Shown: piece by piece, positions 12,423 through 34,907 of the stretch
Layout of the letters: each line of letters opens with the position of its first letter
Position numbering within the stretch: the stretch's first letter is position 1
The notes under the pieces: model-generated
Told to the model about the DNA's origin: nothing
Database searches by the model: none
What the model saw: only the letters and a program-made list of their open reading frames with translations
Translations under genes and position numbers: made by a program
Assembly: GCA_017436845.1 (NCBI GenBank)
Contig: JAFSCJ010000003.1
Coordinates: 1 to 64,000, forward strand
Origin: Muribaculaceae bacterium
Lineage (GTDB): Bacteria; Bacteroidota; Bacteroidia; Bacteroidales; Muribaculaceae
Reading direction: 5' to 3'
Length of the DNA: 64,000 nucleotides

Positions 12423-12487
12423 AAAAAAGGAGGTTACGGTTTCACAACCACAACCTCCAGCAAAACTAATTATTTTGATAAGGTTTA
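12423..12487 (-). terminator. Operon-end 3' UTR and terminator, near-identical to 30431-30495
   Basis: Starting right after the stop of the 221-aa gene, the minus strand has a 12-13 bp stem (GGAGGTTGTGGTT with AACCGTAACCTCC, loop GTGA) followed by six T residues. The whole 65 nt matches the 3' end of the opposite operon at 30431-30495, with four substitutions and one small gap by my alignment. It therefore forms one arm of an inverted repeat around the 18-kb locus. Confidence 0.85.
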
Positions 12488-13153
12488 TTAGTCCTTAAAA
12501 AAATCAACAACAAGTAATAAGCTCTCAGGCTTTTTCCATCTTATTTTGTTATTTTTTAAAAATAACTTCCATGATTCCTTGCTGTCGGCAGGTAGAATTT
12601 TCTCTACATCTTTTTTGTTTGCTTCTATATCAATTTTGCCTATTCGCAAAAAATATTTTTTACGCATACCAATCTCTTTTCCATCATGCTTTTCTTGCAA
12701 CATCAAACCATGACGTTGATTATTCAAACCGGCAAGTTCCAATGATGAAAGATTTCTACCTGAGCCTGTGTTAAGACTAGTACCATAAGCTCCTATTTGA
12801 GTAAATAATGCGTCAAAATCGGCATAATCATATCGTAGCACCATCCCTGCACTACTTTTCGCCATAACCTGCATTATTTTCCCATCACATTGCACATAGG
12901 TAGTCCCTGATATAACAACACTATCAATTTCACTATATTTTGCTGTATATATTTTATCATCATCAGGATTGATGTAGTGCAACACATTATCAACTAAGTG
13001 AATGTTGAATTTTGCCACACTATGTTCCTTCCCTCGATAGACTGTACCTTCGGCAAAATTCTCATTCAAATAGGGCCATTTGGTATTTGGAGAATAAGCA
13101 TTTGCAATAGTCGCAACAAAAAATATCAAGATTGTTAATATCTGATTTCTCAT
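12488..13153 (-). CDS. Secreted protein of unknown function next to a C10 peptidase
   Basis: 221 aa with a signal peptide (residues 1-19, cut after IANA). The mature part begins WPYLNENFAEGTVYRGKEH and continues with a repeating beta pattern (FNIHLVDNVLHYINPDDDK), then a basic C-terminal half. I do not recognise a named domain; similar secreted proteins are widespread but uncharacterised in Bacteroidales. It is the last gene of the minus operon, 12 nt downstream of the C10 peptidase. Some Bacteroides C10 peptidases are encoded beside a small inhibitor, so an immunity or inhibitor role is possible. Nothing in the sequence proves it. The plus operon has an unrelated gene at this position. Confidence 0.6.
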   Translation of the reverse strand: MRNQILTILIFFVATIANAYSPNTKWPYLNENFAEGTVYRGKEHSVAKFNIHLVDNVLHYINPDDDKIYTAKYSEIDSVVISGTTYVQCDGKIMQVMAKSSAGMVLRYDYADFDALFTQIGAYGTSLNTGSGRNLSSLELAGLNNQRHGLMLQEKHDGKEIGMRKKYFLRIGKIDIEANKKDVEKILPADSKESWKLFLKNNKIRWKKPESLLLVVDFFKD

Positions 13154-13165
13154 AATAATATATTC

Positions 13166-14740
13166 TTAAATATTTGCATTGATGAGAACCTTAGAAAATT
13201 TATTTCCTTGACGTTTAACATAAATACCTGGAGTCAGATCAGTATTATTTATTCTAACTCCGTGTAAATTATAGTATTCAGCAGGAGAATTGTCATTATA
13301 GATAACATCATCAATTCCTGCAGATGGTTTTATTTCAATTGTGAATGTACGAGAGACAGAAGCTCCGGAAACCGTATTAGTAGCAATAATTGTTACTGAA
13401 CATGATGTTGCTCCGGTAACAGAATCGGCATAATCACTTGCTGATATTACTTCTGTTGTTACCAAATTTCCATCGACTACTTCAAATGGAACTTTAGCAT
13501 AACCAAATAAAGTTTTCTTCCCTTGTACTTTATAGGTATAAGAAGGATTAGACGCCTCACTAACAACAGTTACCTCACCAACGATAGTTCCTGTCGGTTG
13601 ATTTTCTGAAACTGATGTATTTGACAATGTTATATCTGTCGGATTTTCGCTTGGAGCTCGAATACCTATCACCATGCCATGTTGCGCAGTATAGTTTGCT
13701 CCTATTTGGCTATCTTGAAGATTATCGATTGTAAACCATCCATCGCCATAGCCTCCCCAACCCCAATTGATGTGGAAATAAGCGCTACCATCATATCCGT
13801 CAAGATTAAAGGCATGTCCATATCCTTTTGTTAGATCGGCACCACTATAACAAATTGCACGACCTTCATTAAGCTCTGTTAATATTAAATCTTTCCATGT
13901 AGTGTTACTATTTATTGCATCACGTGAATAATAAGTAACAGAATTAGGATAAGAGAAATAGGTCTTTAGTGCATTTACGATATAGGAATTTTGTGTACCT
14001 GACCCATCAATGCCGTAATCCATTTTCACTGATACTCCACAATGCCACAATAAACGAGCGACATCATCCTTGCCATTTGCTCCACTCAATATATTTGACC
14101 AATTATAAGTCGGCTCTGCATCATAGTTACATGCTACGTCTCCAAAGTTTGAGCTAACATAGGCACAATAGCCATTTGGGCGCTCCGGATATTGAGCAAC
14201 ACTCATTGCTTGCGCCATTGAAACAGCAACGCACCCAACGACAGCTGTTCCACTTGAATTACTTGGACAATATTTATTATAGGGGCTTCCTTGATTCCAA
14301 TATACTGAAATTATAGGTTCGATTTTGCCAACTGAAACAGCCATAGGCTCTATTGTCTCAGTTTCGATCCACCCGCGTGCTTGAATTCCATTCAATTTAG
14401 AATTTTCGACAACTTGTTTGCCATATTCCTCAAGCCACATTTTAGCATTATCGGGAACTCGTGTTATTTGATATTCCGATTTTTCCGAATATCCGATAAG
14501 AGGATTTGACATATCATCAGCACTTATAAGCGCCCATCCCTGTGGTGCAAAGTTAATTACATAATAGGCTTTCACTCCACTGTTATACACAGGCATTATT
14601 GACTTAACGCTTTCTACCGAGATATCTTTTTGTTGCATTAGGCGTATAGCGACAGCTGAAGCTTCACTCTGCGAAACCTCTTTTGCCGTTCCCGACATTG
14701 CAACTACCAATCCTAATAAGAACAATCTGATTTTCTTCAT
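13166..14740 (-). CDS. C10-family cysteine peptidase (streptopain-like) with C-terminal sorting tail, copy A
   Basis: 524 aa. Signal peptide residues 1-19. An N-terminal propeptide-like inhibitor region follows (about 20-135, with YYVINFAPQGWALISADD). The C10 catalytic domain (about 140-355) has Cys170 in VVGCVAVSMAQAMS, His309 in GYGHAFNLDGYDG and the NWGWGGYGDGWF segment. A cadherin-like strand domain starts near 366 with LSNTSVSENQPTGTIVGEV. The C-terminus has YNLHGVRI and PGIYVKRQGNKFSKVLI, typical of type IX-secreted surface proteins. It should be an extracellular endopeptidase activated by loss of its propeptide. The gene lies behind a strong hairpin in the minus operon and is paralogous to 27674-29290. 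Confidence 0.88.
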   Translation of the reverse strand: MKKIRLFLLGLVVAMSGTAKEVSQSEASAVAIRLMQQKDISVESVKSIMPVYNSGVKAYYVINFAPQGWALISADDMSNPLIGYSEKSEYQITRVPDNAKMWLEEYGKQVVENSKLNGIQARGWIETETIEPMAVSVGKIEPIISVYWNQGSPYNKYCPSNSSGTAVVGCVAVSMAQAMSVAQYPERPNGYCAYVSSNFGDVACNYDAEPTYNWSNILSGANGKDDVARLLWHCGVSVKMDYGIDGSGTQNSYIVNALKTYFSYPNSVTYYSRDAINSNTTWKDLILTELNEGRAICYSGADLTKGYGHAFNLDGYDGSAYFHINWGWGGYGDGWFTIDNLQDSQIGANYTAQHGMVIGIRAPSENPTDITLSNTSVSENQPTGTIVGEVTVVSEASNPSYTYKVQGKKTLFGYAKVPFEVVDGNLVTTEVISASDYADSVTGATSCSVTIIATNTVSGASVSRTFTIEIKPSAGIDDVIYNDNSPAEYYNLHGVRINNTDLTPGIYVKRQGNKFSKVLINANI

Positions 14741-14759
14741 AAAATTTACTTTAATTGCA

Positions 14760-14807
14760 AAAGAGGTCTTATTTTTCCTCGATATTCAAGAAAAATAAGA
14801 CCTCTTT
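14760..14807 (-). terminator. Perfect 18-bp hairpin just before the C10 peptidase start (copy A)
   Basis: Arms 14760-14777 and 14790-14807 are exact reverse complements around a 12-nt loop. On the minus strand the stem ends in CTCTTTT only 19 nt before the peptidase ATG. It may be an internal terminator that lowers peptidase expression, or an mRNA-stabilising or processing hairpin. A hairpin of different sequence holds the same place before copy B. Confidence 0.75.
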
Positions 14808-14837
14808 ATTATCTATTAATAAATATATTCGATTCTA

Positions 14838-16490
14838 TTATTTAATAGATTTGGGACTCAAAACAGAGACATTGTTTATACTAAACATTTTTGCGCTACG
14901 AGATAATGATGTTGCAGCTACAGCCTTTGTTCCATATGTTTCCGCAGCAGCGTCATACCAACCAAGACCATCAATATAATATCCCCACAATGTAGGAGAT
15001 GAGAATGAGCCATCGGCTGAGAATTGTAAAATAATATCATCATCTGAACCTCCATTCGAGAAAAAGACCTCAGCTATAGTTGTATTACCCTGTGCGTCTA
15101 TTCTAAATTCATATTTGCCCAAACTTTGATCAATTGGGATAGCAATTGTTCCATAATCGCCATTGCATATACCTTTTATTGATGTTCCTTCAGCAAATAA
15201 ATTAGAAATAACAACACCTGTTTCTGATTCTGGATCAGCGGTTATACTAATATTTTCTGCATATACAGAATTATCAAAATAGCTTTTCCATTGCATAGTA
15301 TAATCTCCTAAGAAATTTTCACGAGTAAAGCCATAAGAGTACAACCATGCTTCAGCAAATTCTATTTCTTCATTAGGGTTCCCATAAGCATCGACAAATG
15401 CTCCGGCAGGAATTTTAATTCCTACATAATCGCCATATGCAGGCGCTTGTGGAAGAACAAATGCAAAATTGTTTCTTGTTGTCATCCATTGACTTGACGA
15501 CAACTTAATCGATGTTTCAGACTGAGCGTTAACGTATGTTACTACAACTTCTTTTCTTATGACATTTCCGTCTTCATCAACAGGATAGTAAACAGCACCA
15601 TTCATAGTTAAAACGCCCATAAAATCAGCCCATTTATTGAAAGCTGAGCCTAATTCAGGAGCTGTAACATTTTCTTCTGAAATTGCAAAAGGCACATTAG
15701 TATTTTGACCTGACAAACCAACAAAATCGCCTTCTGATTCACTAAATCCGCTTGTGATAGCTGCACACTTGTGTCCATAAGAATCAACAAATGCACCTTC
15801 TTCCCAACTGAATGACACATAAGCACCTGCAGGAGCTGATTTAGTCAAGATTGCAATCTGGTTATCTTGTACTTCCACTACAATTGAATCAGCGTCCACA
15901 TCAACAGGCGCAACTACTCCATTGTATAGTTCCATAATTTTGTAGTATTTAGCTGTTACAGCCACATCTTCTACACGAGTGATCGCTTCAGAAAATGCAA
16001 CATACATCACGCCATTATCGGGATCATATTCATAATCTACAGGTTTTGGGGCGAGAGCATCGGTAGTTGTAACAGATTCAACAGCAATTTCTCCTATAAC
16101 ACTTTTCTCATTAGCAGCAACAGCATAGATTTGATATGTAGTGTTGGGGGATGCGATAGGAGCACCTTCAGCATTACGCATATTGTAGGTAAAAGTTGCT
16201 TGTTCTTTAGCATCAACTACAATAGTTCCATAAGTACTTGAATAAAGTCCTTTGTAAAGTGATTCTGCATTTAATGCAACAGGTGCATCAGCTTCATCAA
16301 CCAAAACAGAGTAGAACATAGTACCCTCTGAAGGTGTTACAGTAAATGTAAATGTAGAGTCGGTTGTTTCTGTTACCTCAATCGCAACAGAAGGAGCATC
16401 TCCATATTTTTCTGTAACAGGATCATCAAAGTCAGCACAACCGGTCATTAATAGACCCATTGTCATTAAGCTATATATAATCTTTTTCAT
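14838..16490 (-). CDS. Surface lipoprotein with Ig-like SbsA-type repeats
   Basis: 550 aa with lipobox LMTGCADF (Cys18). The mature protein is a string of beta-sandwich modules. One about residues 30-130 resembles a fibronectin type III fold (TTYQIYAVAANEKS). Two related modules follow around 135-245 and 265-385; each ends in a shared motif, EEGAFVDSYGHK and PAGAFVDAYGNP, as in SbsA-type Ig domains. A C-terminal lipocalin-like or BT-type domain starts near FLGDYTMQWKSYFD. It is probably a surface binding protein working with the SusCD pair upstream. The plus operon has no counterpart. The ligand is unknown; without carbohydrate enzymes nearby, a protein or peptide is as likely as a glycan. 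Confidence 0.7.
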   Translation of the reverse strand: MKKIIYSLMTMGLLMTGCADFDDPVTEKYGDAPSVAIEVTETTDSTFTFTVTPSEGTMFYSVLVDEADAPVALNAESLYKGLYSSTYGTIVVDAKEQATFTYNMRNAEGAPIASPNTTYQIYAVAANEKSVIGEIAVESVTTTDALAPKPVDYEYDPDNGVMYVAFSEAITRVEDVAVTAKYYKIMELYNGVVAPVDVDADSIVVEVQDNQIAILTKSAPAGAYVSFSWEEGAFVDSYGHKCAAITSGFSESEGDFVGLSGQNTNVPFAISEENVTAPELGSAFNKWADFMGVLTMNGAVYYPVDEDGNVIRKEVVVTYVNAQSETSIKLSSSQWMTTRNNFAFVLPQAPAYGDYVGIKIPAGAFVDAYGNPNEEIEFAEAWLYSYGFTRENFLGDYTMQWKSYFDNSVYAENISITADPESETGVVISNLFAEGTSIKGICNGDYGTIAIPIDQSLGKYEFRIDAQGNTTIAEVFFSNGGSDDDIILQFSADGSFSSPTLWGYYIDGLGWYDAAAETYGTKAVAATSLSRSAKMFSINNVSVLSPKSIK

Positions 16491-16510
16491 CTTGTTTTAA
16501 TTTTAAATTA

Positions 16511-17350
16511 TTATTGCTTAGTCCAAACTGCATTCACCATGATATTATACCATGAATTTGTTCCTGTTAAGTTAGATCCAAACCAGTCATTAATAACAAT
16601 TGTTCCATTATCATTAATTACCGCAGTAATATTACCTCCCGTTGGAATAGATTCATCTCCGCTTGGTCCATAAAATCCTTCAAGTTTAGCATCGTTAACA
16701 AGATCTTGTCCTACAGGAATTGCAATTTCAGTTTTGTCAGCATTTACGATACCATATACCATATATCCAGTAGCTGTTCCTGCAGGAACCATAGGATATA
16801 TCCAAACTTTTTGAATATCTTGATCATCTTTCAATATTTGGAAGCTCCATTCGGTTTCGCCATTAAAATATGATTCACCTTTACCCACATATTTGCCTAA
16901 AATTGCTTGCAATGGATGTTCGTTATCAGCGATTGTTACTACACATGTAGAAACAGCGCCCATGTTAACACCTGTTACAGCAGTAATTTTTAACACAATC
17001 TTTTTGTCACCGCCAAATTCATCATTATCAATAATTTGAATGTTAAAATTTTGTGTTGGAGCATCTTTTGTGAAAGTTATTGTATTGCTTTCAGGTAGAG
17101 TAAAATGCACTCCTTCTATAGCTGTAGAAGTAGAATCAACCTCTATTACAGCTTCTCCATCAAGACCGGCAAGAGAGGTAAGCAACACAGGAACATCGAT
17201 TGAGCCGCCAAATTCATCAACGCTCAAAGCTGTATTTGTAAATGCAATAAATGCATCAGCATCATTAAATTCCGGTTGATCATTACTACAAGAAGCAAAA
17301 AGCATCATGCTTGCAACTGCCGCACCGTATATAAAATTAAACTTTTTCAT
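16511..17350 (-). CDS. Calx-beta-like surface lipoprotein, copy A
   Basis: 279 aa with lipobox LFASCSND (Cys20). Residues about 35-145 form a Calx-beta-type domain: VDEFGGSIDVPVLL, IEGVHFTLPES, NFNIQIIDNDEFGGDKKIVLKI and VTIADNEHP. The C-terminal half (GKYVGKGESYFNGETEWSF onward) is a separate beta-rich domain. Calx-beta modules bind calcium or act as structural spacers. The gene follows SusD with 27 nt between and is matched in position and domain order by 26715-27593 in the other operon. It is likely an accessory surface lipoprotein of the import complex. Confidence 0.7.
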   Translation of the reverse strand: MKKFNFIYGAAVASMMLFASCSNDQPEFNDADAFIAFTNTALSVDEFGGSIDVPVLLTSLAGLDGEAVIEVDSTSTAIEGVHFTLPESNTITFTKDAPTQNFNIQIIDNDEFGGDKKIVLKITAVTGVNMGAVSTCVVTIADNEHPLQAILGKYVGKGESYFNGETEWSFQILKDDQDIQKVWIYPMVPAGTATGYMVYGIVNADKTEIAIPVGQDLVNDAKLEGFYGPSGDESIPTGGNITAVINDNGTIVINDWFGSNLTGTNSWYNIMVNAVWTKQ

Positions 17351-17377
17351 TTTAGTAATTCTCTATTAAAAGATTAA

Positions 17378-18808
17378 TTAATAACCTGGGTTTTGTTCCA
17401 TGTTAGGATTAGCCTCCATTTCGCGTTTAGGAATAGGCAAAGCCCACATATAGCTTGGGAACTCAACATTTTGATTTACGTTGTCATCAAAATCAGTACG
17501 AGTCATAGATTTTTTACAACGTGCATAGTCATAGTGAATGTGACCTTCAAAAGCAAGTTCACGACGACGTTCATCAAAGATTCCTTGATCTGTAGCCGCG
17601 GCAGCAGTACATCCACGTTTTTCAGCTATTGCAGCAAGGTCTCCAGCTGCAGTAGCACCTGCAACTGATGCACCATTTAACAATGCCTCAGCACGATTCA
17701 AATACATTTCAGAAATACGAATCAATGGCACATTAGTTGTACGTGGTTGAACCCCTTCTTTACCGGTATATTTACCACAATAGTATTCACCATTGTGCTC
17801 TTGGTACATAGCTAAACGCACATCACCATCTTCATAAAGATTGATTAGATCCATTGTTGCACAAACATCAGCTGATCCATTGTCGCCAAAATTAGTTATA
17901 TAAGGTAAGTGAGTCCAACCTGAAGCATCCCAATAAGAATTGAGTTTATCTCCAAACACTTCAAAGATATATTCCCCACCTTCAGTAGCTATTGAAGCAC
18001 TGAACATAGTTTTGTAAGTATTAGCATCAGCAAGGCTGAATTTACCGCTATTAATAACTTTTGTTGCATAGTCAGCAGCACCTTGCCAATTACCCATATA
18101 TAGGTACACACGAGACAAGAATGCTTGGATAGCAGGTTTTGTAGCAGCCGCTACAGGGTCATTAACACCTGCACGTTGATATCCATCAGCCATTAACGCT
18201 TCGGCATCGGTCAAGTCTTTTACGATTTGAGTATAAACTTCTGCAACAGTATTACGTGCCGGAGTGCCATTTTCGGTTACAAGAACTACAGGCACACCTA
18301 AACTCTCAGGTTGATAAGTATATGGTTGTGCATAAGTTGTAACCAAATTATGATAGCAGAATGCACGAACAAAAAGAGCTTCGGCCATGAGATTATCAAG
18401 ATCGGCTTGAGTTGCATTGCGCTCTTGATTGATATCTATATTAGGAATTGCATTAATCACGTTATTTGCCCATGCAATAGTATAATATGCATAAGACCAC
18501 ACAGGCGATGTTGAATTTTCATTATAAATCCATGTTGTGTAACCTGTATAACGTCCTGACCCCGGCTCTTGCAAAGGTTTTTTTGCATTACCACAACGCA
18601 TTTCCGAACTTAAAATGTATTCGCCATCAAACCAAGATGCACTTTGAAACATAGTGTATAATCCGGCAGTAGCATTATTAATACCATCGTAAGACGATAG
18701 CGTCAATTCATTGCTTTGTGACAGTTCCGGTTCTTGTTCCAAGAATCCATCGCAAGAAACAAGCATCATTGCCGAAAGAACTGCGCAACTAAATAATATC
18801 TTTTTCAT
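17378..18808 (-). CDS. SusD/RagB-family surface substrate-binding lipoprotein, copy A
   Basis: 476 aa. Lipobox MLVSCDGF (Cys19). The helical TPR-like SusD core is visible through FLEQEPELSQ at the N-terminus, ALFVRAFCYHNLVTTYAQPY (about residues 143-162), RVYLYMGNWQGAADYATKVI, LIRISEMYLNRAEALL and the conserved end LPIPKREMEANPNMEQNPGY. SusD proteins form the lid of a SusC barrel and capture the substrate. It lies 29 nt after the SusC gene. With peptidases in the operon, the RagB model (peptide binding) fits better than glycan binding. Confidence 0.92.
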   Translation of the reverse strand: MKKILFSCAVLSAMMLVSCDGFLEQEPELSQSNELTLSSYDGINNATAGLYTMFQSASWFDGEYILSSEMRCGNAKKPLQEPGSGRYTGYTTWIYNENSTSPVWSYAYYTIAWANNVINAIPNIDINQERNATQADLDNLMAEALFVRAFCYHNLVTTYAQPYTYQPESLGVPVVLVTENGTPARNTVAEVYTQIVKDLTDAEALMADGYQRAGVNDPVAAATKPAIQAFLSRVYLYMGNWQGAADYATKVINSGKFSLADANTYKTMFSASIATEGGEYIFEVFGDKLNSYWDASGWTHLPYITNFGDNGSADVCATMDLINLYEDGDVRLAMYQEHNGEYYCGKYTGKEGVQPRTTNVPLIRISEMYLNRAEALLNGASVAGATAAGDLAAIAEKRGCTAAAATDQGIFDERRRELAFEGHIHYDYARCKKSMTRTDFDDNVNQNVEFPSYMWALPIPKREMEANPNMEQNPGY

Positions 18809-18837
18809 ATTTATATTTCTTTTTACGATGATTAAAA

Positions 18838-21813: not shown

Positions 21814-21870
21814 AGTTTTACATAAAAATTAAACATATATTATTTACTCTCTTTCTATTTATAATTTGTG

Positions 21871-21892
21871 CAATCTCTTGCTAAGAGATTTC
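21871..21892 (-). repeat. 22-bp inverted repeat, left copy (leader of SusC copy A)
   Basis: This is the exact reverse complement of 22046-22067. The repeat itself folds: arms AATCTCTT and AAGAGATT close a GCT loop, and on this side the flanks TTGTG and CACAA extend the palindrome. It falls at the expected 5' end of the minus-operon mRNA, 79 nt before the SusC ATG when counted from 21892. Confidence 0.9.
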
Positions 21893-22045
21893 ACAACTAT
21901 ACAATTGCCTAATTTTTAAGTAGTAACACGCGTGCTCTGCTGTAAAATATCAAATTTTAGATTTTGGCAAAATGTTAAATCTGGAGAAAAAATGCTTTCA
22001 TTTGTTTATAATAAGAGAATTTATACTATCTTTGCAATTTGATAT
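21893..22045. promoter_or_regulatory. Candidate invertible promoter segment between the two SusCD operons
   Basis: These 153 bp lie between exact 22-bp inverted repeats. A -33 TTTG at 22001-22004 and a -7 TATCTTTGC at 22027-22035 (22-nt spacer) point to the plus operon, with a start near 22041, right at the right repeat. Facing left there is only TATAGTTG, one mismatch from TAnnTTTG, without a TTTG at proper distance. Inversion would turn the good promoter to the minus operon with the same geometry. The repeats and promoter are seen; inversion is inferred. Otherwise the region is an ordinary divergent promoter with duplicated leader hairpins. Confidence 0.55.
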
Positions 22046-22067
22046 GAAATCTCTTAGCAAGAGATTG
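22046..22067 (+). repeat. 22-bp inverted repeat, right copy (leader of SusC copy B)
   Basis: Exact reverse complement of 21871-21892 and itself an 8-bp hairpin with a 3-nt loop. It begins about 5 nt after the predicted transcription start and 81 nt before the SusC copy B ATG. The leader beyond it (CAAATTAAGAATGGAAGAAAG) resembles the opposite leader. Confidence 0.9.
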
Positions 22068-22126
22068 CAAATTAAGAATGGAAGAAAGTTTATTTAATAT
22101 TAATGTATGTCTAATTTAAATTAAGT

Positions 22127-25093
22127 ATGAAAAAGCTGTTTCTATTACTTTTGACAGTCTTGACTATTTCTCTTAGTGCATATGCGCAAAAGAAGGTGTC
22201 GGGTACTGTAATTGATGCCGGAACAGGTGAACCTCTAATTGGTGCGACTGTTTTGCCGGTAGGTGGAGGCAATGGTGTGGCAACTGACCTTGATGGTAAG
22301 TTTACATTGACAGTTCCATCTAAAGTGACTCAGATTAATGTGTCTTATGTGGGTATGCAATCTCAAACTGTTGCTATCTCAGAAAACATGACCATTGCTC
22401 TTGCAGTAAATAACACAACTCTTGATGAGGTAGTTGTAACCGGTTATGGTTCTGCTCGTAAACTTGGTTCTATCGTAGGTTCTGTAACTGCTGTTAGTGG
22501 TGATATCGTAGAAAATTCTCCGGTAGCTAACATCGGTGACGCTCTTCAAGGGCAAGTTGCCGGTCTTCAAGTATTCACTTCAAGTGGTGAGCCAAGTAGC
22601 TCTGCAAGTATGCGTATTCGTGGTGTCAGCTCAATTAACAGTAGCTCTGAACCATTGTTTATCCTTGATGGTTCTCCAATTTCATCAGGCGCATTTACTG
22701 CATTGAACCCTAACGATATTGAAACAATGACAGTATTGAAAGATGCGTCAGCAACAGCTATCTATGGTTCTCGTGCTGCTAATGGTGTTGTAATCTTGAC
22801 AACTAAAAAAGGTAAACGTGGACAAAAAGCAAAAGTTCAAGTTAGCGCTCAATATGGTATCTCTAAAATGACAGGTGACCGTATGGATATGATGAACGCT
22901 GAAGAATGGTTGAACTTCCAAGAAATGCTTGACCCATCAATGAAAAATAATGCAGCATTCCAAGCTGAAAAACAATTCTATATTGATAATGGTATTTCTA
23001 CTGACTGGGCTGATGTATTTTTTGGCGGATCTGCTCCAATGCAACAATATGATCTTAGCATCACTGGCGGTACTGAAGCATTGAACTATTACCTATCATT
23101 CAGCCACTATGATGCAGATGGTATTATGGACGACTCTAATCTACGTCGTGAAACTTTGCGCTCAAACATTGATGCAAGCATCAACCAATGGATTCGCGTA
23201 GGTGCAAACTTGAGCTTGTCTTATCAAAAATATATTACAGCAGCGTTTGGCAATACTGCTAACTCTGTATATAACAAAGCATACGCATCTCGTATCTATC
23301 GTCCTGACCAATCTTACTATGAAATTCTTCGTAATGAAGATGGCTCATTTGCCGGATATGGTGATCGTCTTGACTATTTTGATAAACTTGGTTACTATAA
23401 CCCATATTATTTGTCAGAAATTCAACCAGGTCACAAAGATATGGTTCGTATAAATGGAGGTACATTTATTAACCTTAACCCTATCAAAGGTTTGAATATC
23501 CGAGCAGCACAAGGTGTTGAAGCATTTGACTATCGTTCATCAGGTGTAGCACTTCCTACAGGCCCATTTGAAGGTAACGGTTCTGCAAGCGAATCTTTCC
23601 AACGTTACTATCAATTCACTTATACTAATACTGCTGAATATCGTTTCAACATTGAAAAATTGCACAATGTTACTCTTTTGGCAGGTCAAGAATCTATCAT
23701 TACTAAGAATGAATCATTTGGTGTAAGTGTAGATGGTTTGACTGATACTCGTCTTATGTTGATGAGCTCAGCTTCAATCCCAACTCTTCCTTCTCACAGC
23801 AAATATGACAAAGTATTTAACTCATTCTTTGGAACATTAAGCTACAATTATGATGAAAAATACTTTGCCGACTTTACATTCCGTCGTGACGGGTCTTCAT
23901 TGTTTGCTAAGAATAAACAATGGGGTAACTTCTGGTCAGCAGGTGCTATGTGGAATATCAAGAAAGAAGAATTCATGAAAGACCTTACTTGGCTTAATGC
24001 ATTGCAATTCAAAGCAAGCTATGGTTTGATTGGTAACTCTTCAGGTCTTGACCCATATATGTCTCTTGGTCTTATCGGTGACGGCCCATTGTATAATGGC
24101 GTAGGCGGTACAGCTATTGCTAACTCTGCTAACCCTGACTTGACTTGGGAGGTTGTTAAATCAACTAACTTAGGTATTAGTGCACGTGTATTGGATCGCG
24201 TAAGTGTAGATCTTGAATACTACAACCGTTTGACAGAAGATATGTTGATGGATATTCCTTATTCATTTACAACAGGTTTCTCTTCAGGATGGGGTAACGT
24301 AGCAAGTATGCGCAACCGTGGTTTCGATGCTACAGTTAATGTTGATATCTTCAAAAATTTCTATGGTGTTGACTGGAGTGTATCAGCAAACATTAACTAC
24401 AACCAAAACGAAATTACAGAATTGTTCAACGGCCGTGACGAATATGTATTGGCTAACACTGGTTTGAAACTTCAAGTAGGTAAACCTTATGGTGAATATT
24501 TCTATACTCGTTGGGCAGGTGTTGACCCACGCGATGGTTACAACATGTGGAAAGACAAAAACGGTAACTTGACAAAAGTATTCTCTGAAGATGATGCAGT
24601 ATTTACAGGAAAACAACGTTACGCTCCATGGTCAGGTGGTCTTGGAACTCGCGTAAGCTGGAAAGGTATCACTGTAAGCGCTGACTTCTCATTCATGCTT
24701 GGTCAACACTTGATTAACAATGAACGTTGGTTCGTTGAAAACCCACAATTTGCATCTAAAAATAACCAAACTACTAAGATGTTTACAATGTGGCAAAAAC
24801 CAGGTGATATCACAGAAATTTCAACTCCTGAATCACCAATGCAATTTGATACTCACTTGCTTGAAGATGCTTCATTCATGCGTATGAAGAACTTGACAGT
24901 AAGCTATAATCTTCCTCAAAACATTATCCGTAAAACAGGATTTGTTGAAGGATGTAAAGTATTCTTTATCGGACGTAACTTGTGGACAATTACTGACTAT
25001 CAAGGTTATGACCCTGAAGTTGATAACAACGTTCAACTTGGTAACTATCCTAATACTAAACAAGTTTCTTTCGGTCTTGAGTTAACATTCTAA
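22127..25093 (+). CDS. SusC/RagA-family TonB-dependent transporter, copy B
   Basis: 988 aa. Signal peptide to about residue 20 (AYA|QK). The regulatory-like domain (about 22-95) has LIGATVLPVGGGNGVATD. The plug follows (VVVTGYGSARKLGSIVG, MRIRGVSSINSSSEPLFILDG, VLKDASATAIYGSRAANGVV) and a barrel ends in VSFGLELTF. It is paralogous to copy A and heads the plus operon behind the stronger promoter. The codon choice is strongly biased (many CGT, GGT, AAC), which suggests high expression. Substrate is inferred to be peptide because the operon encodes a C10 peptidase and no glycan enzyme. Confidence 0.94.
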   Translation: MKKLFLLLLTVLTISLSAYAQKKVSGTVIDAGTGEPLIGATVLPVGGGNGVATDLDGKFTLTVPSKVTQINVSYVGMQSQTVAISENMTIALAVNNTTLDEVVVTGYGSARKLGSIVGSVTAVSGDIVENSPVANIGDALQGQVAGLQVFTSSGEPSSSASMRIRGVSSINSSSEPLFILDGSPISSGAFTALNPNDIETMTVLKDASATAIYGSRAANGVVILTTKKGKRGQKAKVQVSAQYGISKMTGDRMDMMNAEEWLNFQEMLDPSMKNNAAFQAEKQFYIDNGISTDWADVFFGGSAPMQQYDLSITGGTEALNYYLSFSHYDADGIMDDSNLRRETLRSNIDASINQWIRVGANLSLSYQKYITAAFGNTANSVYNKAYASRIYRPDQSYYEILRNEDGSFAGYGDRLDYFDKLGYYNPYYLSEIQPGHKDMVRINGGTFINLNPIKGLNIRAAQGVEAFDYRSSGVALPTGPFEGNGSASESFQRYYQFTYTNTAEYRFNIEKLHNVTLLAGQESIITKNESFGVSVDGLTDTRLMLMSSASIPTLPSHSKYDKVFNSFFGTLSYNYDEKYFADFTFRRDGSSLFAKNKQWGNFWSAGAMWNIKKEEFMKDLTWLNALQFKASYGLIGNSSGLDPYMSLGLIGDGPLYNGVGGTAIANSANPDLTWEVVKSTNLGISARVLDRVSVDLEYYNRLTEDMLMDIPYSFTTGFSSGWGNVASMRNRGFDATVNVDIFKNFYGVDWSVSANINYNQNEITELFNGRDEYVLANTGLKLQVGKPYGEYFYTRWAGVDPRDGYNMWKDKNGNLTKVFSEDDAVFTGKQRYAPWSGGLGTRVSWKGITVSADFSFMLGQHLINNERWFVENPQFASKNNQTTKMFTMWQKPGDITEISTPESPMQFDTHLLEDASFMRMKNLTVSYNLPQNIIRKTGFVEGCKVFFIGRNLWTITDYQGYDPEVDNNVQLGNYPNTKQVSFGLELTF

Positions 25094-25120
25094 TTACTAA
25101 CACAAAAGAGATAAAAGGAA

Positions 25121-26683
25121 ATGAAAAAACTAAATATTTTTGCAGCTTCTCTGATTGCGTTGGGACTATTTTCCTGCGACATGGATAAATATCCCTATGA
25201 TGCATTGGAAGAATCTACATACATGACAACTATGAATGACTTCGCTAATGCAAGAGTAGGTCTTTACTCTTACTATAGAAGTCTTACAACCGGTGGTTAT
25301 ATCTTGACACCGGAAATCCAAGCCGATGATTTTAATGCAGTTTCAGGCTTTTCAAACATTTATGGCAACTCCTACCGTTGGGATTTCCAATCAACAGATG
25401 GAAATATTGAAGCTATATGGTCGGCTTATTATGCTCACATAGCACGTGCCAATTATTATATTGACAGCTATACCAAGATTGTAGAAGGTGAAAACACATT
25501 CACAGAAGAAGAAATTGCTACTCTTGGTGCATACGTAGCTGAAGCTTATTTCACTCGTGCTAATGCTTATTTGACATTGGCAGGTTATTTCTGTAAAGGT
25601 TATGATGACGCTACAGCTGAAACAGATTTAGGATTGCCGTTGCAATTGACTTATGCTCCTTCTTCTGATGCTTCAACTTATCCCGGTCGTTCATCGTTGA
25701 AAGCAACTTATGCTCAAATCATGAGCGATATTGCTGAGGCAGAACGTTTGATTAATCCAAATTTGATTTTGTCAAAAGATCAAAAAGCATTGAATTACAT
25801 TTCAGCTGATGTTGTAACAGCGTTGAAAGCTCGTGCTGCATTGCAAATGAAAGATTATGCAACAGCTGTTACAGCTTCTACTTCGCTAATCGCATCAGGC
25901 AATTATCCTTTGATTGATGCAAATACACAAGAAGGCGTTAATGCATTCTATGATTTGTGGGAATTTGACGAAGGTACTGAAGTAATGTGGCAAATTTACT
26001 TGTCTCCTGACGAGCTTGGTTCAGCTACCGGAACAACTTTCTGGGGTCAATACAAAGAAAGCGATCCAAGCCAACAAGTTATGGATTATATCCCATCTCA
26101 AAATTTGGTTGATTTGTATGACGTGAATGATATTCGTTTGTATACATTCTTTGCTCCATTTACTTTGACTGTTGCAACAGGCGCACAAGGTAATATCTAT
26201 GTATTCAACAAATATCCGGGTAACCCGGAATTGAATGCAAGCCTAAATGTTGATGATCACTATACCAACTATCCAAAACCATTCCGCATTTCAGAACAAT
26301 ATCTAATTGCCGCTGAAGCTTATGCAGGAAGCAAAAATTTGGGCAAGGCAAGTGAATACTTGAATGCGTTGAAATCAAAACGTATACTTGGTTATCAAGC
26401 CAATAATTATTCAGATGAGGTTACTTTCATGTCAGCACTTCAAGATGAACGTCACAGAGAGTTGGTAGGTGAAGGTTTCCGTCTTGTTGACTTGAAACGT
26501 TGGGGTCTTGGTGTAAATCGTGGTAATGCTCCACAAAATGCAAATCTTGTACTTTTCCCGGGAGCTGAAACTACAACTGCTCTAAATAAAGCGGCTAACG
26601 ATTTCCGCATGGTATGGCCTATTCCAAAGTCTGAAATGGATGCTAATCCACAACTTAAAGGTCAACAAAACCCCGGTTACTAA
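25121..26683 (+). CDS. SusD/RagB-family surface substrate-binding lipoprotein, copy B
   Basis: 520 aa with lipobox LFSCDMDKYP (Cys19). SusD features include the N-terminal PYDALEESTYMTT region, YVAEAYFTRANAYLTLAGYF (about residues 143-162), ALKARAALQMKDYATAV, FRISEQYLIAAEAYAGSKN, DERHRELVGEGFRLVDLKRWG and the end WPIPKSEMDANPQLKGQQNP. It pairs with the SusC 27 nt upstream. It is clearly longer than copy A, so the binding face may differ. Confidence 0.92.
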   Translation: MKKLNIFAASLIALGLFSCDMDKYPYDALEESTYMTTMNDFANARVGLYSYYRSLTTGGYILTPEIQADDFNAVSGFSNIYGNSYRWDFQSTDGNIEAIWSAYYAHIARANYYIDSYTKIVEGENTFTEEEIATLGAYVAEAYFTRANAYLTLAGYFCKGYDDATAETDLGLPLQLTYAPSSDASTYPGRSSLKATYAQIMSDIAEAERLINPNLILSKDQKALNYISADVVTALKARAALQMKDYATAVTASTSLIASGNYPLIDANTQEGVNAFYDLWEFDEGTEVMWQIYLSPDELGSATGTTFWGQYKESDPSQQVMDYIPSQNLVDLYDVNDIRLYTFFAPFTLTVATGAQGNIYVFNKYPGNPELNASLNVDDHYTNYPKPFRISEQYLIAAEAYAGSKNLGKASEYLNALKSKRILGYQANNYSDEVTFMSALQDERHRELVGEGFRLVDLKRWGLGVNRGNAPQNANLVLFPGAETTTALNKAANDFRMVWPIPKSEMDANPQLKGQQNPGY

Positions 26684-26714
26684 TCTATTTAATCAATAAA
26701 AGACTATTTTAATT

Positions 26715-27593
26715 ATGAAACTAAATAAAATATTTGCACTGATGCTCGCTGCTACAATGTTTACAGCTTGTTCTGATGATGACAAGAGCTGGAACAGCAA
26801 CGATGTAACAGTAAATATGCTTGAAAGCGAAGTTTCCGTTAAGGAAAACAATGGAATATTTAATGTTCCTGTTTCTGTCGACGGTGAAATGAATGGTCCA
26901 GTAGAGGTAACTGTTGAAGTTGCAGAGGCAGGAGCAAATCCAGCTATGGATGATGTTCATTACGTTGTTACAGAAAAAACTATTGTGATTGTTGCTGAAG
27001 ATGGTGTTGGCAATATTGAAATCAGAGCGGTAGATGATGATGAAATCAATGAAGCTCGCACATTTACAGTTACAATTGTAGATGTTAAGGGTGGTGTTGT
27101 CGGTCAAAATGCAACTGCTACTGTTTACCTAAAAGATAATGACTCGGTATTCTATGAAAAATTGCAAGCTAATTGGAAAATGAACGTAACAAGTAAGTAC
27201 GACGGTGCTGTTGCATGGAATACTAAAATCGTTGGTTATCAAGAAGGAGATGCCGGTTATAACAAAACTCTATTTGTAACAGGAGTTCTTGGTTATGATT
27301 TCTGTCAACTTGAATTGAATTATTATTTCGACATGGACACTAAAACAGGCTATGTTGAAATTCCTTTGGGACAAGTTGTTGCAGCTTATGATGCCTCTAA
27401 TGACATCTTTGCTTGTGGTCTGACTCCTGAAGGGAATCTTACACTAAGTGGCTCAGTTAAGGGTACATGGAATGAAGACATGACAGAAATTACATTTGAA
27501 GACAAAGATATTGTGTTCTATGTAATGAATGGTTCTACTGGTGCCGGTCTTGGTCCATTTGACTGGGTTTGGGGTGTCACAATGACTCGTTAA
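26715..27593 (+). CDS. Calx-beta-like surface lipoprotein, copy B
   Basis: 292 aa with lipobox MFTACSDDD (Cys19). Residues about 30-142 match the Calx-beta pattern (VSVKENNGIFNVPVSVDG, DDVHYVVTEKT, NIEIRAVDDDEINEARTFTVTI, VYLKDNDS). The C-terminal half (WKMNVTSKYDGAVAWNTKIV onward) is a second beta domain with acidic loops. Same place and domain order as 16511-17350 in the minus operon, which supports common origin, although the sequences have diverged. It probably serves the surface complex; the ligand is unknown. Confidence 0.68.
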   Translation: MKLNKIFALMLAATMFTACSDDDKSWNSNDVTVNMLESEVSVKENNGIFNVPVSVDGEMNGPVEVTVEVAEAGANPAMDDVHYVVTEKTIVIVAEDGVGNIEIRAVDDDEINEARTFTVTIVDVKGGVVGQNATATVYLKDNDSVFYEKLQANWKMNVTSKYDGAVAWNTKIVGYQEGDAGYNKTLFVTGVLGYDFCQLELNYYFDMDTKTGYVEIPLGQVVAAYDASNDIFACGLTPEGNLTLSGSVKGTWNEDMTEITFEDKDIVFYVMNGSTGAGLGPFDWVWGVTMTR

Positions 27594-27622
27594 TATTCTG
27601 AAAAGATTAAGATTCTATAATT

Positions 27623-27657
27623 AAAGATTGGCACACAAAATGTGTGTGCCAATCTTT
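27623..27657 (+). terminator. Perfect 15-bp hairpin just before the C10 peptidase start (copy B)
   Basis: Arms AAAGATTGGCACACA (27623-27637) and TGTGTGCCAATCTTT (27643-27657) close a 5-nt loop and are followed by one more T and CC. The stem ends 16 nt before the peptidase ATG. Position matches the hairpin at 14760-14807, yet the sequences are unrelated, so structure rather than sequence is kept. Confidence 0.78.
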
Positions 27658-27673
27658 TCCATCTCTATAGTTT

Positions 27674-29290
27674 ATGAAGAATTTCATTAGTTTTTTATTG
27701 TTGCAATTCGTTGTTATATCGGCGTTTGCAACGTTGATAAGCCCTGAAAAAGCACAATCGGTGGCAGAACGATATATCGAGAGCCGTGCCGGTAAAGATT
27801 TCACCGTAAGGTCATCACAAAAAGCTGATGGCGCTTTCTATATTGTTAATTTTGCACCAAAAGGATGGGTTATCGTCGCTGCCGACGATGTTGTAAAGCC
27901 CATTATCGGTTATTCATTATCAGGAAGCCTTGATATGAATAAAATGCCTGATAATGTGTCATATATTCTTGATGGCTATAAAAAACAGATAAAATATATA
28001 GTGAGCACTGAAACAAAAGCACATGTAGGATGGGATAATCCGGAATATGTGCGTTCTCGTTCAGGGAATGAAGTGGAACCACTCATTAAAGTTAATTGGA
28101 ATCAAAGTGCCCCTTATAATGTGTATTGTCCCCGCCAAACAGCTCTTGTGGGGTGTGTAGCGGTTGCGATGAGTCAGGCAATGAGCGTGCAGAGACATCC
28201 GTCTCGTCCTGTTGGCTCTGTTTCATACAGCAGTGCTAATTATGGTTCATTGAGAATAAATTTTGATGAGCAACGTGCCTATAATTGGGATGATATAATG
28301 TCAGGAGCAAATAATTATGATGAAGCAGCTCGATTGATGTATCATGCCGGAATGAGTGTTAAGATGGACTATGGAGAAGATGGCTCCGGAATACCATCAA
28401 ATCAAGTGAGTCGCATTTCTAATGCTTTAAAAGAAAATTTCTCATATTCTGATGATGTAACCTATTATTGGCGAGACCAATATAGTGGCGATTGGAAACA
28501 ATTAATTGTTAATGAATTGAATGCCGGTCGTGCCGTCATTTATAACGCCATTGACTCAAAAGGTGGTTATGGACACAGTTTTAACCTTGATGGATATGAC
28601 AGCAATGGCTTGTTTAATGTCAATTGGGGTTGGGGTGGATATGGTGATGGCTATTTCTCTATTGACAACTTGCGTGATGGTCGCATGGGTATGAATTATG
28701 ACACCGGTCATGTTGTAGTTGTAGGTATTGGAGCTCCTGATCAACCACTCAAAAGTATTTCTTTGAGTCACAATCGCATCGAAGAAAACTTGCCTGCCGG
28801 CTCGGTAGTTGGTGCTATTGAAGTAAATGGAGAAGCTCCCAAGTCAACTTATAAGTTGAGTGTTCATGGTGTTTACCAAAGTAACATAGGAGGATATGCC
28901 GAAGTCCCATTTGTAATAGAAAATGGTCTATTGAAGACTACTGAATTATTGACAACAACAGGAAAAACATGGAATATTGAAATTTCTGTTGCAGATCCCG
29001 AAAGTGGAGCAGAGCTTACTCAAGGATTTAAAGTTACAGTAGATGCTTGGGCAAGTTTGGAGGAAAAGACTAAATTGAGTTATGATAGACTTAGTCGCAT
29101 GTTCAAGATTGTTACAAAGCACAATGTAACGTATAAGATTTATGACGCAAATAGTAATTTGATTCAAAGTGGGGAATTATCTCCATTGCCTGAATTAGAA
29201 TTTAATGCATCAATTCTTCCTGCGGGAAAAAACAGAATTGAATTGCGTTGTAATGATGAGATTAAGAAACTAAACATTGTCACAAAATAA
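27674..29290 (+). CDS. C10-family cysteine peptidase (streptopain-like), copy B
   Basis: 538 aa. Signal peptide residues 1-19. Propeptide-like region about 20-130 (FYIVNFAPKGWVIVAADD). Catalytic C10 domain about 135-350 with Cys161 in LVGCVAVAMSQAMS, His301 in GYGHSFNLDGYDS and the NWGWGGYGDGYF segment. A cadherin-like segment near 365 (SHNRIEENLPAGSVVGAIEV) parallels copy A. The tail (LPAGKNRIELRCNDEIKKLNIV) is beta-rich like a sorting domain but lacks the PGIY-type ending of copy A. Predicted to be an exported endopeptidase producing peptides for the SusCD pair of its operon. Confidence 0.88.
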   Translation: MKNFISFLLLQFVVISAFATLISPEKAQSVAERYIESRAGKDFTVRSSQKADGAFYIVNFAPKGWVIVAADDVVKPIIGYSLSGSLDMNKMPDNVSYILDGYKKQIKYIVSTETKAHVGWDNPEYVRSRSGNEVEPLIKVNWNQSAPYNVYCPRQTALVGCVAVAMSQAMSVQRHPSRPVGSVSYSSANYGSLRINFDEQRAYNWDDIMSGANNYDEAARLMYHAGMSVKMDYGEDGSGIPSNQVSRISNALKENFSYSDDVTYYWRDQYSGDWKQLIVNELNAGRAVIYNAIDSKGGYGHSFNLDGYDSNGLFNVNWGWGGYGDGYFSIDNLRDGRMGMNYDTGHVVVVGIGAPDQPLKSISLSHNRIEENLPAGSVVGAIEVNGEAPKSTYKLSVHGVYQSNIGGYAEVPFVIENGLLKTTELLTTTGKTWNIEISVADPESGAELTQGFKVTVDAWASLEEKTKLSYDRLSRMFKIVTKHNVTYKIYDANSNLIQSGELSPLPELEFNASILPAGKNRIELRCNDEIKKLNIVTK

Positions 29291-29302
29291 ATTTTATAGG
29301 AT

Positions 29303-30430
29303 ATGAAACATTTGAAATTTACAATATTGGCGTTAGGCTTGACAATGTTCTATTCTTGTAGCTCAGGTGGCGAAGATGAGCCAACCCCCCCCGCATCAGA
29401 TGGTGATGTAACAGTTACAATCTCTACTGAGATATTGACGAAAGCTAATGTAACAACTGCTTTTGCAAGTGGTGATGCTATGAATGTGTTTCCAAAGACT
29501 TATGGCAAAATCGATGCTCCTAACCGTGTTGACAATGTGAAAGCAACACTTTCAGGAGCAAATTGGTCAATGTCTCCTGAGGTTAAAATCTCAAAAGGTG
29601 AGAATGCATTTATATATGCAGTAGCTCCTTATAATGCAGCATATACCGATGCAACTGCTATACCTGTAGATGTTTCGCAACAGATAGATTTGCTATATTC
29701 AGGCTCATATGTACCTGTTTCTTATACAACACATAATGCGAAGCTTGTAATGAAACACGCATTGTCGTTGGTGTCTTTTAATATCAGCAAACAAGGATAT
29801 TCCGGTGCCGGAAATCTTTCAAAAATGTCGATATCAGGAGATAATGTATATACCAAAGGAACAATGAAGGTCGATAATGGGAAAATAACCGGAACATCTA
29901 AGGATGTATTTACATTTAATGTCAGCAAAAAGATTTCGGAGGCAGGGTGGAGCGAAGATCTACCACGCATGTGGCAAATTCCATTCTCAACAAAAATAAA
30001 TAAGGTAAACATTGCAATTACGATTGATAATGTAACTTATAATGTTGAATTCCCTGAGGTAGAAATGAAAAGCGGATATCAATATATCTTCCGCATGGTG
30101 TTGACCGATTATGGTCTTGAATTTATTCCCGGAGCAGTAGAAACAATCTCTTTAAATCAGGAAGAAGATGCGATGTCGGCTTTAAATGGTTATGGAGTAT
30201 TGACTATTACTCACGTTGGAAGTGAATTAATGATACCTGCATTCACCGGAGATGATGTCTTTGGTACTATAACATGGGGCGATGGCGCAAGTTCATCATA
30301 TAAGCCTAAGGCAACACATGTTTATTCAGGAACCTCAGAAAAAGAAGTTGTGATTGAAAGTTGGAATTCTACCGGGTTTGAACTTGACAAATTGACCGGA
30401 ATCGAAACAATCGATTTGACTTCTTATTAA
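29303..30430 (+). CDS. Fimbrillin-like lipoprotein
   Basis: 375 aa with lipobox FYSCSSGGED (Cys19). The fold signature of fimbrillin-like proteins is visible: TVTISTEILTKANVTTAFASGDAMNVFP, then AFIYAVAPYNAAYTD, AKLVMKHALSLVSFNIS, and SGYQYIFRMVLTDYGLEF. A short C-terminal module with TWGDGASSSYKP and HVYSG looks PKD-like. Fimbrillin-like proteins can be pilus subunits or single surface lipoproteins. No other pilus gene is near, so a surface accessory role is more likely here. It ends the plus operon, and its 3' UTR is nearly identical to that after the unrelated 221-aa gene of the minus operon. Confidence 0.65.
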   Translation: MKHLKFTILALGLTMFYSCSSGGEDEPTPPASDGDVTVTISTEILTKANVTTAFASGDAMNVFPKTYGKIDAPNRVDNVKATLSGANWSMSPEVKISKGENAFIYAVAPYNAAYTDATAIPVDVSQQIDLLYSGSYVPVSYTTHNAKLVMKHALSLVSFNISKQGYSGAGNLSKMSISGDNVYTKGTMKVDNGKITGTSKDVFTFNVSKKISEAGWSEDLPRMWQIPFSTKINKVNIAITIDNVTYNVEFPEVEMKSGYQYIFRMVLTDYGLEFIPGAVETISLNQEEDAMSALNGYGVLTITHVGSELMIPAFTGDDVFGTITWGDGASSSYKPKATHVYSGTSEKEVVIESWNSTGFELDKLTGIETIDLTSY

Positions 30431-30495
30431 TACCCTTATCAAAATAATTAGTTTTGCGGGAGGTTGTGGTTGTGAAACCGCAACCTCTTTTTTTT
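30431..30495 (+). terminator. Operon-end 3' UTR and terminator, near-identical to 12423-12487
   Basis: Stem GAGGTTGTGGTT (30460-30471) pairs with AACCGCAACCTC (30476-30487) around a GTGA loop and is followed by eight T residues. Similarity to the opposite operon begins at the stop codon and runs through the T-tract. Confidence 0.9.
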
Positions 30496-30541
30496 GTAGC
30501 TTGCATTTGGAAAGTAAATAATGTGTTTTTTGTGGAAATTA

Positions 30542-30574
30542 TTTGGTTATTTAGGAGAAAGACTATAATTTTGC
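30542..30574 (+). promoter_or_regulatory. Promoter of the ilv operon
   Basis: TTTG at 30542-30545, a 20-nt spacer and TAATTTTGC at 30566-30574 form an exact Bacteroides-type promoter. Transcription should start near 30580, about 20 nt before the leader peptide ATG. Confidence 0.8.
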
Positions 30575-30598
30575 AATCTAAATAGTGAAAATAGCAAT

Positions 30599-30664
30599 AT
30601 GATAAATCAATACACTCAACTGCTACAAGTCGTGGTCGTCGTCCTAAGATCTCAGGAGGGTTAA
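30599..30664 (+). CDS. ilv operon leader peptide (attenuator)
   Basis: A 21-codon reading frame starts with ATG shortly after the promoter. Nine residues are branched-chain, including the run LLQVVVVVL at residues 8-16 with five Val codons in succession. A terminator hairpin follows at 30700-30733, and ilvD begins 25 nt after it. This is the arrangement of leader-peptide attenuation: when charged tRNA-Val or tRNA-Leu is scarce, ribosomes stall in the run and prevent terminator formation. GAGGG at 30656-30660 can pair with CCCTC at 30708-30712 as part of an antiterminator. Too short for routine gene callers. Confidence 0.85.
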   Translation: MINQYTQLLQVVVVVLRSQEG

Positions 30665-30699
30665 GTTGTCGTGTATTTATAATTGAATAAAATATAATC

Positions 30700-30739
30700 G
30701 ATGCCTTCCCTCTCTTCAAGAATGGAAGGCATCTTGATT
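30700..30739 (+). terminator. Attenuator terminator before ilvD
   Basis: GATGCCTTCC (30700-30709) and GGAAGGCATC (30724-30733) form a perfect 10-bp stem with a 14-nt loop, followed by TTGATTT. It lies between the leader peptide and ilvD. Confidence 0.82.
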
Positions 30740-30757
30740 TAATAAAATAATCAGATT

Positions 30758-32587: not shown

Positions 32588-32631
32588 GGTAGGAGGTCTC
32601 TCATAATTATAATACATAGATTAGAAAGTAT

Positions 32632-34347: not shown

Positions 34348-34361
34348 ACGCTCAATAGATA

Positions 34362-34907
34362 ATGGAAAAACAATTATTTACGGTAACGGTATTTTCGGAA
34401 CATCAAGTTGGGTTGCTTAACCAAATCTCGATTATATTTACACGCCGTTGTCTCAATATTGAGAGTCTATCTGTTAGCCCTTCATCAATAGAAGGTGTTC
34501 ATAAATTCACAATCACTTGTTATAGTGATAGAGTGATGATGGAAAAGGTTGTGAAACAGATAGAAAAACGCATCGATGTGTTGAAATCGTTTCTATATAC
34601 CGATGAAGAGATTGTTTATCAAGAGGTGGCTTTGTATAAAGTGCCAACAGACAAATTACTTGATGAGAAAAATCTTGAAGTGATAATACGTAATCACAAT
34701 GCTCGTATCCTTGAGATAACACGAGAATATACTATTATTGAAAAAACAGGTCATTCTGATGAGACAGAGGCATTGTTTGAGGAGTTGAAACGTTACGATA
34801 TACGTCAATTTGTGCGTAGTGGTCGTGTAGCTGTTACAAAATCTCCTGTTGAATATGTTGATAGATTTATAGAGGAACAAAATCGCAGAAAAGAAAGTTT
34901 GAAATAA
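34362..34907 (+). CDS. ilvN: Acetolactate synthase, small (regulatory) subunit
   Basis: 181 aa. An ACT domain at residues 1-80 (FTVTVFSEHQVGLLNQISIIFTRR then NIESLSVSPSS) should bind valine. The C-terminal domain (EVALYKVP to VRSGRVAVTKSP) is the usual activation part. Length and position are typical of the ilvN/ilvH family. Confidence 0.93.
   Translation: MEKQLFTVTVFSEHQVGLLNQISIIFTRRCLNIESLSVSPSSIEGVHKFTITCYSDRVMMEKVVKQIEKRIDVLKSFLYTDEEIVYQEVALYKVPTDKLLDEKNLEVIIRNHNARILEITREYTIIEKTGHSDETEALFEELKRYDIRQFVRSGRVAVTKSPVEYVDRFIEEQNRRKESLK

Follow-up and report, generated by a model that had tools for sequence, protein, structure and literature searches.

A candidate invertible promoter between two divergent, peptidase-coupled SusCD operons in a Muribaculaceae genome

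A promoter segment bounded by inverted repeats lies between two SusCD operons

The window analysed here is a 64,000-nucleotide stretch of contig JAFSCJ010000003.1 from a Muribaculaceae bacterium (assembly GCA_017436845.1); at positions 12423-30495 it carries two divergent operons, called minus and plus after their strands, each of which encodes a SusC-SusD pair (SusCD), a Calx-beta lipoprotein and a C10 cysteine peptidase. We propose that one invertible promoter toggles these two peptidase-coupled SusCD systems, and we hold this to be likely. The candidate element occupies the gap between the two SusC genes, where the left inverted repeat TGCAATCTCTTGCTAAGAGATTTCA (21869-21893, plus strand), a candidate recombination site, is a perfect 25-bp complement of the right repeat TGAAATCTCTTAGCAAGAGATTGCA (22045-22069, plus strand; 25/25 positions). 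Between them lies a 151-bp candidate invertible segment (21894-22044, no strand assigned), in which a Bacteroidetes-type promoter, TTTG-N22-TATCTTTG, is predicted at 22001-22034 on the plus strand, facing the plus operon. It is the sole TAnnTTTG promoter between the divergent SusC starts, and no such motif points towards the minus operon within 316 bp. Inversion of the segment in silico moves the promoter from -100 of the plus SusC to -98 of the minus SusC. An earlier note on this DNA had described a shared centre from which the operons face away, which stands, but it had overlooked the 25-bp repeat pair around the promoter there.

A shuffle control predicts 0.02 matches to the repeat motif in the window. 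Each repeat is nearly palindromic around an asymmetric centre triplet (GCT/AGC here), a form that would suit the core site of a tyrosine recombinase. Positions 21967-22044 of the segment are homologous to the native plus promoter of G009, a genome of the same genus, and the predicted promoter is kept 5' of the plus SusC in both G009 and G003. The minus side can be compared with G075, a genome of another genus in the same family, whose minus-type operon has its own TATCTTTG at -117; this motif is missing here, and the minus leader matches the G075 leader only as far as the repeat.

According to the proposed mechanism, a tyrosine recombinase of the Phage_int_SAM_5 type would recombine the two repeats (21869-21893 and 22045-22069) and thereby flip the 151-bp segment. 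In the assembled orientation the promoter would drive the plus operon (RagAB-like SusCD, Calx-beta protein, secreted C10 peptidase and fimbrillin), while no promoter can be recognised for the minus operon; once flipped, the promoter would sit at a comparable distance from the minus SusC and drive the minus set. A population would then be a mix of cells, each using one surface system or the other, and in each set extracellular protein is most likely cleaved by the C10 peptidase and the fragments taken up through SusCD. The computed basis of this proposal consists of the repeats, the promoter, the geometry, the motif family, the co-occurrence with a recombinase clade and the opposite orientations found in related divergent SusCD loci, from which we infer that the segment flips in this strain, that expression is mutually exclusive and that the substrates are peptides.

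The repeats belong to a family of paired sites

A paired pattern, in which two copies of CTCTTNNNAAGAG stand 155-185 bp apart with the centre triplet left free, was found in 10 of 393 genomes of the order and in 89 of 397 genomes of the family; the reversed pattern, used as a control, occurred in none of the order genomes and in one family genome. (The longer, 25-base pattern had given few pairs when the family was first scanned, and the short paired pattern was used instead.) The centre triplets vary widely from pair to pair, yet in 94 of the 96 pairs listed for order and family the triplet of the second copy, read by eye, is the reverse complement of that of the first, as it is here. The same check by script on fetched loci gave 24/24 and 29/30 pairs, 3 of the 24 having come from outside the unbiased pattern search; the triplet counts, like the co-occurrence counts given below, are uncorrected for kinship. 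Both direct-orientation exceptions are found at loci holding a third, inverted copy. The match within pairs combined with variation between them therefore points to strand exchange, which needs identity, whereas operators do not.

Paired sites usually have a TAnnTTTG motif 14-17 bases inside one of the repeat cores. The genes adjoining paired sites include those for NusG-like (UpxY-type) proteins, DUF3575 proteins and SusC, and several sites directly adjoin a gene for a tyrosine recombinase of about 400 aa. For the short peptide at a contig end of G301, guessed to be UpxY-like, no Pfam match was obtained, and its capsule assignment is one of resemblance only. The genome under study holds one further place with the motif, on contig C11 (L005 9207-9429; G000:C11:101206-101428), 5' of another SusCD operon, with a TAAATTTG promoter inside the pair facing that operon. 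No paired site was found between the SusC gene and the divergent C10 gene of G026. Inverted repeats 5' of SusC in L041 were rejected as members of the family, being low-complexity TTGCAAGAG runs beside another integrase and of a different motif. A text search of the literature for the repeat sequence gave no match, the comparison with published Bacteroidota inverton motifs being one of text only.

Two members of the family stand beside genes of other kinds. In G671:C112 (L065) a paired site at 1501-1700 has its promoter facing a beta-lactamase-family gene directly downstream (1848-2750), an arrangement resembling promoter-switched resistance genes (PMC8748976). In G769:C44 (L068) a paired site lies near a GroEL-like gene, which recalls the IVp-II element beside groES/EL in B. 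fragilis (PMC4747536).

Related divergent SusCD loci carry their segments in opposite orientations

In three genomes of one other genus (G148, G123 and G108) an orthologous divergent SusCD pair has paired sites between its two SusC genes, whose products (1066-1074 and 1152-1157 aa) differ from those of the window. In G148 the promoter is directed at SusC-B and in G123 at SusC-A; in G108 promoters point in both directions. When the left segments of G148 and G108 are compared, the score is 54 in the inverted and 16 in the direct orientation, against a shuffle maximum of 30. The G123 segment scores 35 inverted and 23 in the same orientation against the right segment of G148 (shuffle maximum 34.5), and 32 inverted against the right segment of G108 (shuffle maximum 30), so that the G123 scores barely exceed the shuffle maxima. 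Because homologous segments are oppositely oriented in these genomes, the orthologous loci of this other genus suggest that such segments flip in a divergent-SusCD architecture.

The three loci (L134, L135 and L136, respectively) contain two to three recombination sites, with a third site and a second promoter segment in two of the three genomes.

A recombinase of the matching clade

The genome encodes one recombinase of the clade found beside the paired sites. This protein, from contig C20 (L009 1934-2990, G000:C20), is 48-54% identical to the recombinases of about 400 aa that stand beside pairs, and its four nearest relatives (54-57% identity) are each encoded beside an inverted pair with the same core or a close variant. 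C20-type recombinases occur in 44 of the 393 order genomes, including all ten of those with pairs (P 1.1e-10, ignoring kinship). The 282-aa core of the C20 protein has intact SAM and catalytic domains, and its N-terminus appears damaged. No resolvase-family or other serine recombinase was found in the genome, which rules out an Mpi-type serine invertase.

The two operons

The divergent pair is flanked by ilvE and ilvD. ORFs (open reading frames) and Pfam matches uphold the gene map that the earlier note had drawn for 12423-30495, together with the additional genes that it had assigned to each operon and the hairpin that it had placed ahead of each C10 gene, which is strong in both. On the minus strand the operon runs from SusC, a TonB-dependent transporter (18838-21813; Pfam Plug, CarbopepD_reg_2 and TonB barrel; 74% identical to that of G075), through a SusD lipoprotein (17378-18808; Pfam SusD_RagB and SusD-like_3) and a Calx-beta lipoprotein (16511-17350; Pfam Calx-beta) to an Ig-like surface lipoprotein (14838-16490), an ORF without a Pfam family that is 40% identical to its G075 orthologue. 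These are followed by the hairpin (14760-14807; an 18-bp perfect inverted repeat, -28.0 kcal/mol), a C10 cysteine peptidase with an I69 inhibitor propeptide (13166-14740; Pfam E 1.5e-54; GCVA-169, GHAF-308), an ORF for a 221-aa secreted protein (12488-13153; 56% identical to its G075 orthologue, with the order kept) and a terminator (12423-12483). The plus strand carries a RagA-like SusC (22127-25093), a RagB-like SusD (25121-26683) and a Calx-beta lipoprotein (26715-27593), all three recognised by Pfam, then the hairpin (27623-27657; -23.3 kcal/mol), a C10 cysteine peptidase with an I69 inhibitor propeptide (27674-29290; Pfam E 9.7e-52; GCVA-160, GHSF-300), a fimbrillin-like lipoprotein (29303-30430; Pfam Mfa_like_1) and a terminator (30434-30494).

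Both peptidases have the C10 domain, the I69 propeptide and the GCVA, GH[AS]F and WGWGG motifs, and the solved relatives of the minus enzyme are interpain A and streptopain. Although a SusCD pair is present in each operon, no carbohydrate-active family was detected among the ten operon proteins scanned against Pfam, which agrees with the earlier remark that no glycan enzyme is visible and does not fit a polysaccharide utilization locus. No Rfam elements or riboswitches were found, and the window lacks tRNA genes, which rules out tRNA-linked integration.

Proposed peptide import by the two systems

An analogy with the oligopeptide importer RagAB of Porphyromonas gingivalis had been suggested for both operons, and it fares differently in the two. 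Among solved proteins, RagA is by far the nearest to the plus SusC (617 bits, with the runner-up at 394); for the plus SusD, RagB is best by sequence, although at only about 22-24% identity, and it is also the top fold match of the predicted model (pTM 0.82), with BT_2365 close, a suggestive result only, the SusD superfamily having one common fold. Homology thus makes RagAB-type peptide import well supported for the plus operon. The minus SusC is about as near to another SusC entry, 8aa4 (426 bits), as to RagA (404 bits), and the best solved match of the minus SusD is 3kez, an uncharacterised 'putative sugar binding protein', with RagB absent from its matches at E 0.01. For the minus operon RagAB-type import is a weaker proposal, resting on the conserved C10 neighbours. 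We know of no coupling of RagAB to a C10 peptidase or to a flip promoter.

The peptidases do not behave as random neighbours. The adjacent SusC-SusD-C10 blocks that the earlier note had suggested looking for exist in other genomes for both operon types: the five-gene plus block (SusC, SusD, Calx-beta, C10, fimbrillin) keeps its order in G009, G003 and a Mediterranea MAG (metagenome-assembled genome), and the minus C10 accompanies its operon in G075 and G057, the block of G057 being more loosely kept and having two C10 genes. In addition, the peptidase downstream of the plus-type SusC-SusD-Calx core varies: it is C10 here, M64 together with M16 in L041 and an S8 subtilase in L048. This swapping of peptidases at a common core is a stronger argument than the SusD fold. 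The L041 locus (12526-17184) is a RagAB-like SusCD-Calx core with M64 and M16 peptidases after it in a Bacteroides MAG (SIG134).

Alternative explanations

Several observations weigh against the proposed switch or its proposed function. Inversion at 21869-22069 is a prediction from the one assembled orientation in the single genome of the species. The C20 protein, the only right-clade recombinase of the genome, lacks an arm domain, a 5' remnant of which ends in a stop; its gene lies beside prfA with no paired site adjoining. One repeat of the C11 pair has three mismatches, and this repeat may be decaying. At the position of the right repeat, G003 and G009 (L036 around 6600, L035 around 6700) have a degenerate ATCTC..GAGAT palindrome. 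As regards function, the substrate is deduced from homology only, and the model of the minus SusD is poor (pLDDT 52.8), so that the structural comparison with RagB foreseen in the earlier note supports the plus protein alone, the fold search of the minus model not being used. Because the C20 gene looks damaged and has no paired site adjoining, the switch may be locked plus-ON in this strain. A former switch whose recombinase has decayed, with the cell fixed in this state and the minus operon silent, is a real but lesser possibility, which differs from the invertible promoter only on whether the switch still moves here; the degraded C11 repeat and the lack of a serine recombinase would fit it as well. 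The window repeats, however, have kept their identity at 25/25 positions, and the six minus genes all retain intact, open reading frames, which would be unexpected had the operon been silent for long. Recombinases other than C20 (C16, C24) could act, or the intact 282-aa C20 core could be translated from its own ATG; a relative in G010 is short and likewise without an arm domain but lies beside an intact pair, which indicates that arm-less versions may still work.

That the repeats are static palindromes, either hairpins in the leaders or a pair of operators bound by a dimeric regulator, between ordinary divergent SusCD operons that undergo no inversion, is very improbable. Each repeat does fold as an 8-bp hairpin just past the predicted start site, and because of the palindrome in G003 and G009 the right repeat may derive from a leader hairpin, the palindrome being either a decayed site or the ancestral hairpin. 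However, an operator or a hairpin would have no need of centre triplets that agree within a pair, as they do in 94 of 96, but vary from one pair to the next; the pairs co-occur with one recombinase clade, homologous segments are seen in both orientations, and the leader fold is no better than those of shuffled sequences (z 0). It is also unlikely, though less so, that the switch is real but serves systems for glycans or glycoproteins, with the peptidases only stripping glycoproteins. SusCD pairs are mostly glycan importers, and the nearest solved relatives of the minus pair would accord with this, but the plus pair is closest to RagAB, no carbohydrate-active family accompanies either operon among the proteins scanned, and related loci replace C10 with M64, M16 and S8 peptidases. 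The invertible promoter between two peptidase-coupled SusCD systems is the explanation that we prefer.

Separate origins of the operons

The earlier reading of the locus as a duplicated system does not hold. The plus and minus proteins are about 34% (SusC), about 27% (SusD) and 45% (C10) identical, and because the SusC proteins are so divergent and each operon has stand-alone orthologues in other genomes, a recent inverted duplication is ruled out and the operons have separate origins. The coding-region inverted repeats I1 and I2 that appeared in an inverted-repeat scan are ordinary SusC homology. In G009, ilvE, the plus operon and ilvD follow one another and the minus operon is absent, homology to the window ending at 12343 and restarting at 21967; in G003 the plus operon likewise adjoins ilvD. 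The entire minus operon is found, with its order kept and without a plus partner, in G075 (SusC 74%, SusD 60% and C10 53% identical), and the minus SusD occurs in only 2 of 297 family genomes. Since the minus operon is absent from G009, whole in G075 and this rare, either the 9.6-kb operon was placed beside the native plus operon here or it was lost from G009.

Across 22127-35362 the window and G009 (L035) show a mosaic of identity (SusC 98.7%, SusD 90%, C10 98.6%, ilvD 92%), in which 500-bp blocks at 100% adjoin blocks at 88-90%; this pattern suggests recombination between species.

The ends of the span are 61-nt inverted copies of each other, 95% identical, which are intrinsic terminators. 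As this sequence is found nowhere in the genome beyond the two operon ends, the copies were rejected as ends of a mobile element. They resemble each other more than the minus copy resembles the G009 terminator (84%), though the operons differ, and gene conversion is a possible source of this likeness.

Relation to known systems

Phase variation is known in Bacteroidota for capsules and SusCD genes. We lean towards the view that the family makes recurrent use of two-way SusCD invertons as a class of regulation, in which a small promoter flipping between two unrelated SusCD operons would impose a one-of-two choice on each cell; here the choice would be between two peptidase-coupled systems for scavenging protein, which would have been assembled when a 9.6-kb foreign operon came to stand beside a native one and the foreign operon's own promoter was replaced. 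If this is true, a clonal population could split its diet, in this case between two protein sources, and the exposed outer-membrane proteins seen by phages and immune receptors would vary. The repeat motif and the recombinase clade provide simple search keys. No paper on one promoter toggling two divergent SusCD operons was found in the open-access literature.

Bacteroides is already known for invertible promoters, for tyrosine recombinases that act in trans and for SusCD shufflons (PMC4747536, PMC10939037, PMC11892184). In B. fragilis the invertible promoters IVp-I and IVp-II are flipped in trans by the tyrosine recombinase Tsr19/BF2766 (PMC4747536). The window element resembles them in its short promoter segment between inverted repeats, its TAnnTTTG promoter and its surface-gene targets, and the proposed recombinase would resemble Tsr19 in being a tyrosine recombinase that acts on a local and a distant site. 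However, the B. fragilis promoters drive one operon each, and the orientation of IVp-II is without effect on the neighbouring groES/EL (PMC4747536), whereas the window element is flanked on both sides by a SusCD-peptidase operon that could receive the promoter. The SusC/SusD shufflons of B. fragilis controlled by Tsr0667 (PMC4747536) likewise involve DNA inversion acting on SusCD systems, but in the window the two operons would stay in place and the 151-bp promoter segment between them would be the sole moving part. As to the genes under control, C10 peptidases and the type IX secretion system (T9SS) have been recorded in S24-7 genomes of the same bacterial family (PMC4936053); the C10 enzymes are listed there as secreted peptidases, whereas here they belong to candidate switched SusCD operons. 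The plus SusCD pair has RagAB of Porphyromonas gingivalis (PDB 6SLI, 5CX8) as its best solved relative, and the peptidases share the C10 and I69-propeptide architecture of interpain A and streptopain.

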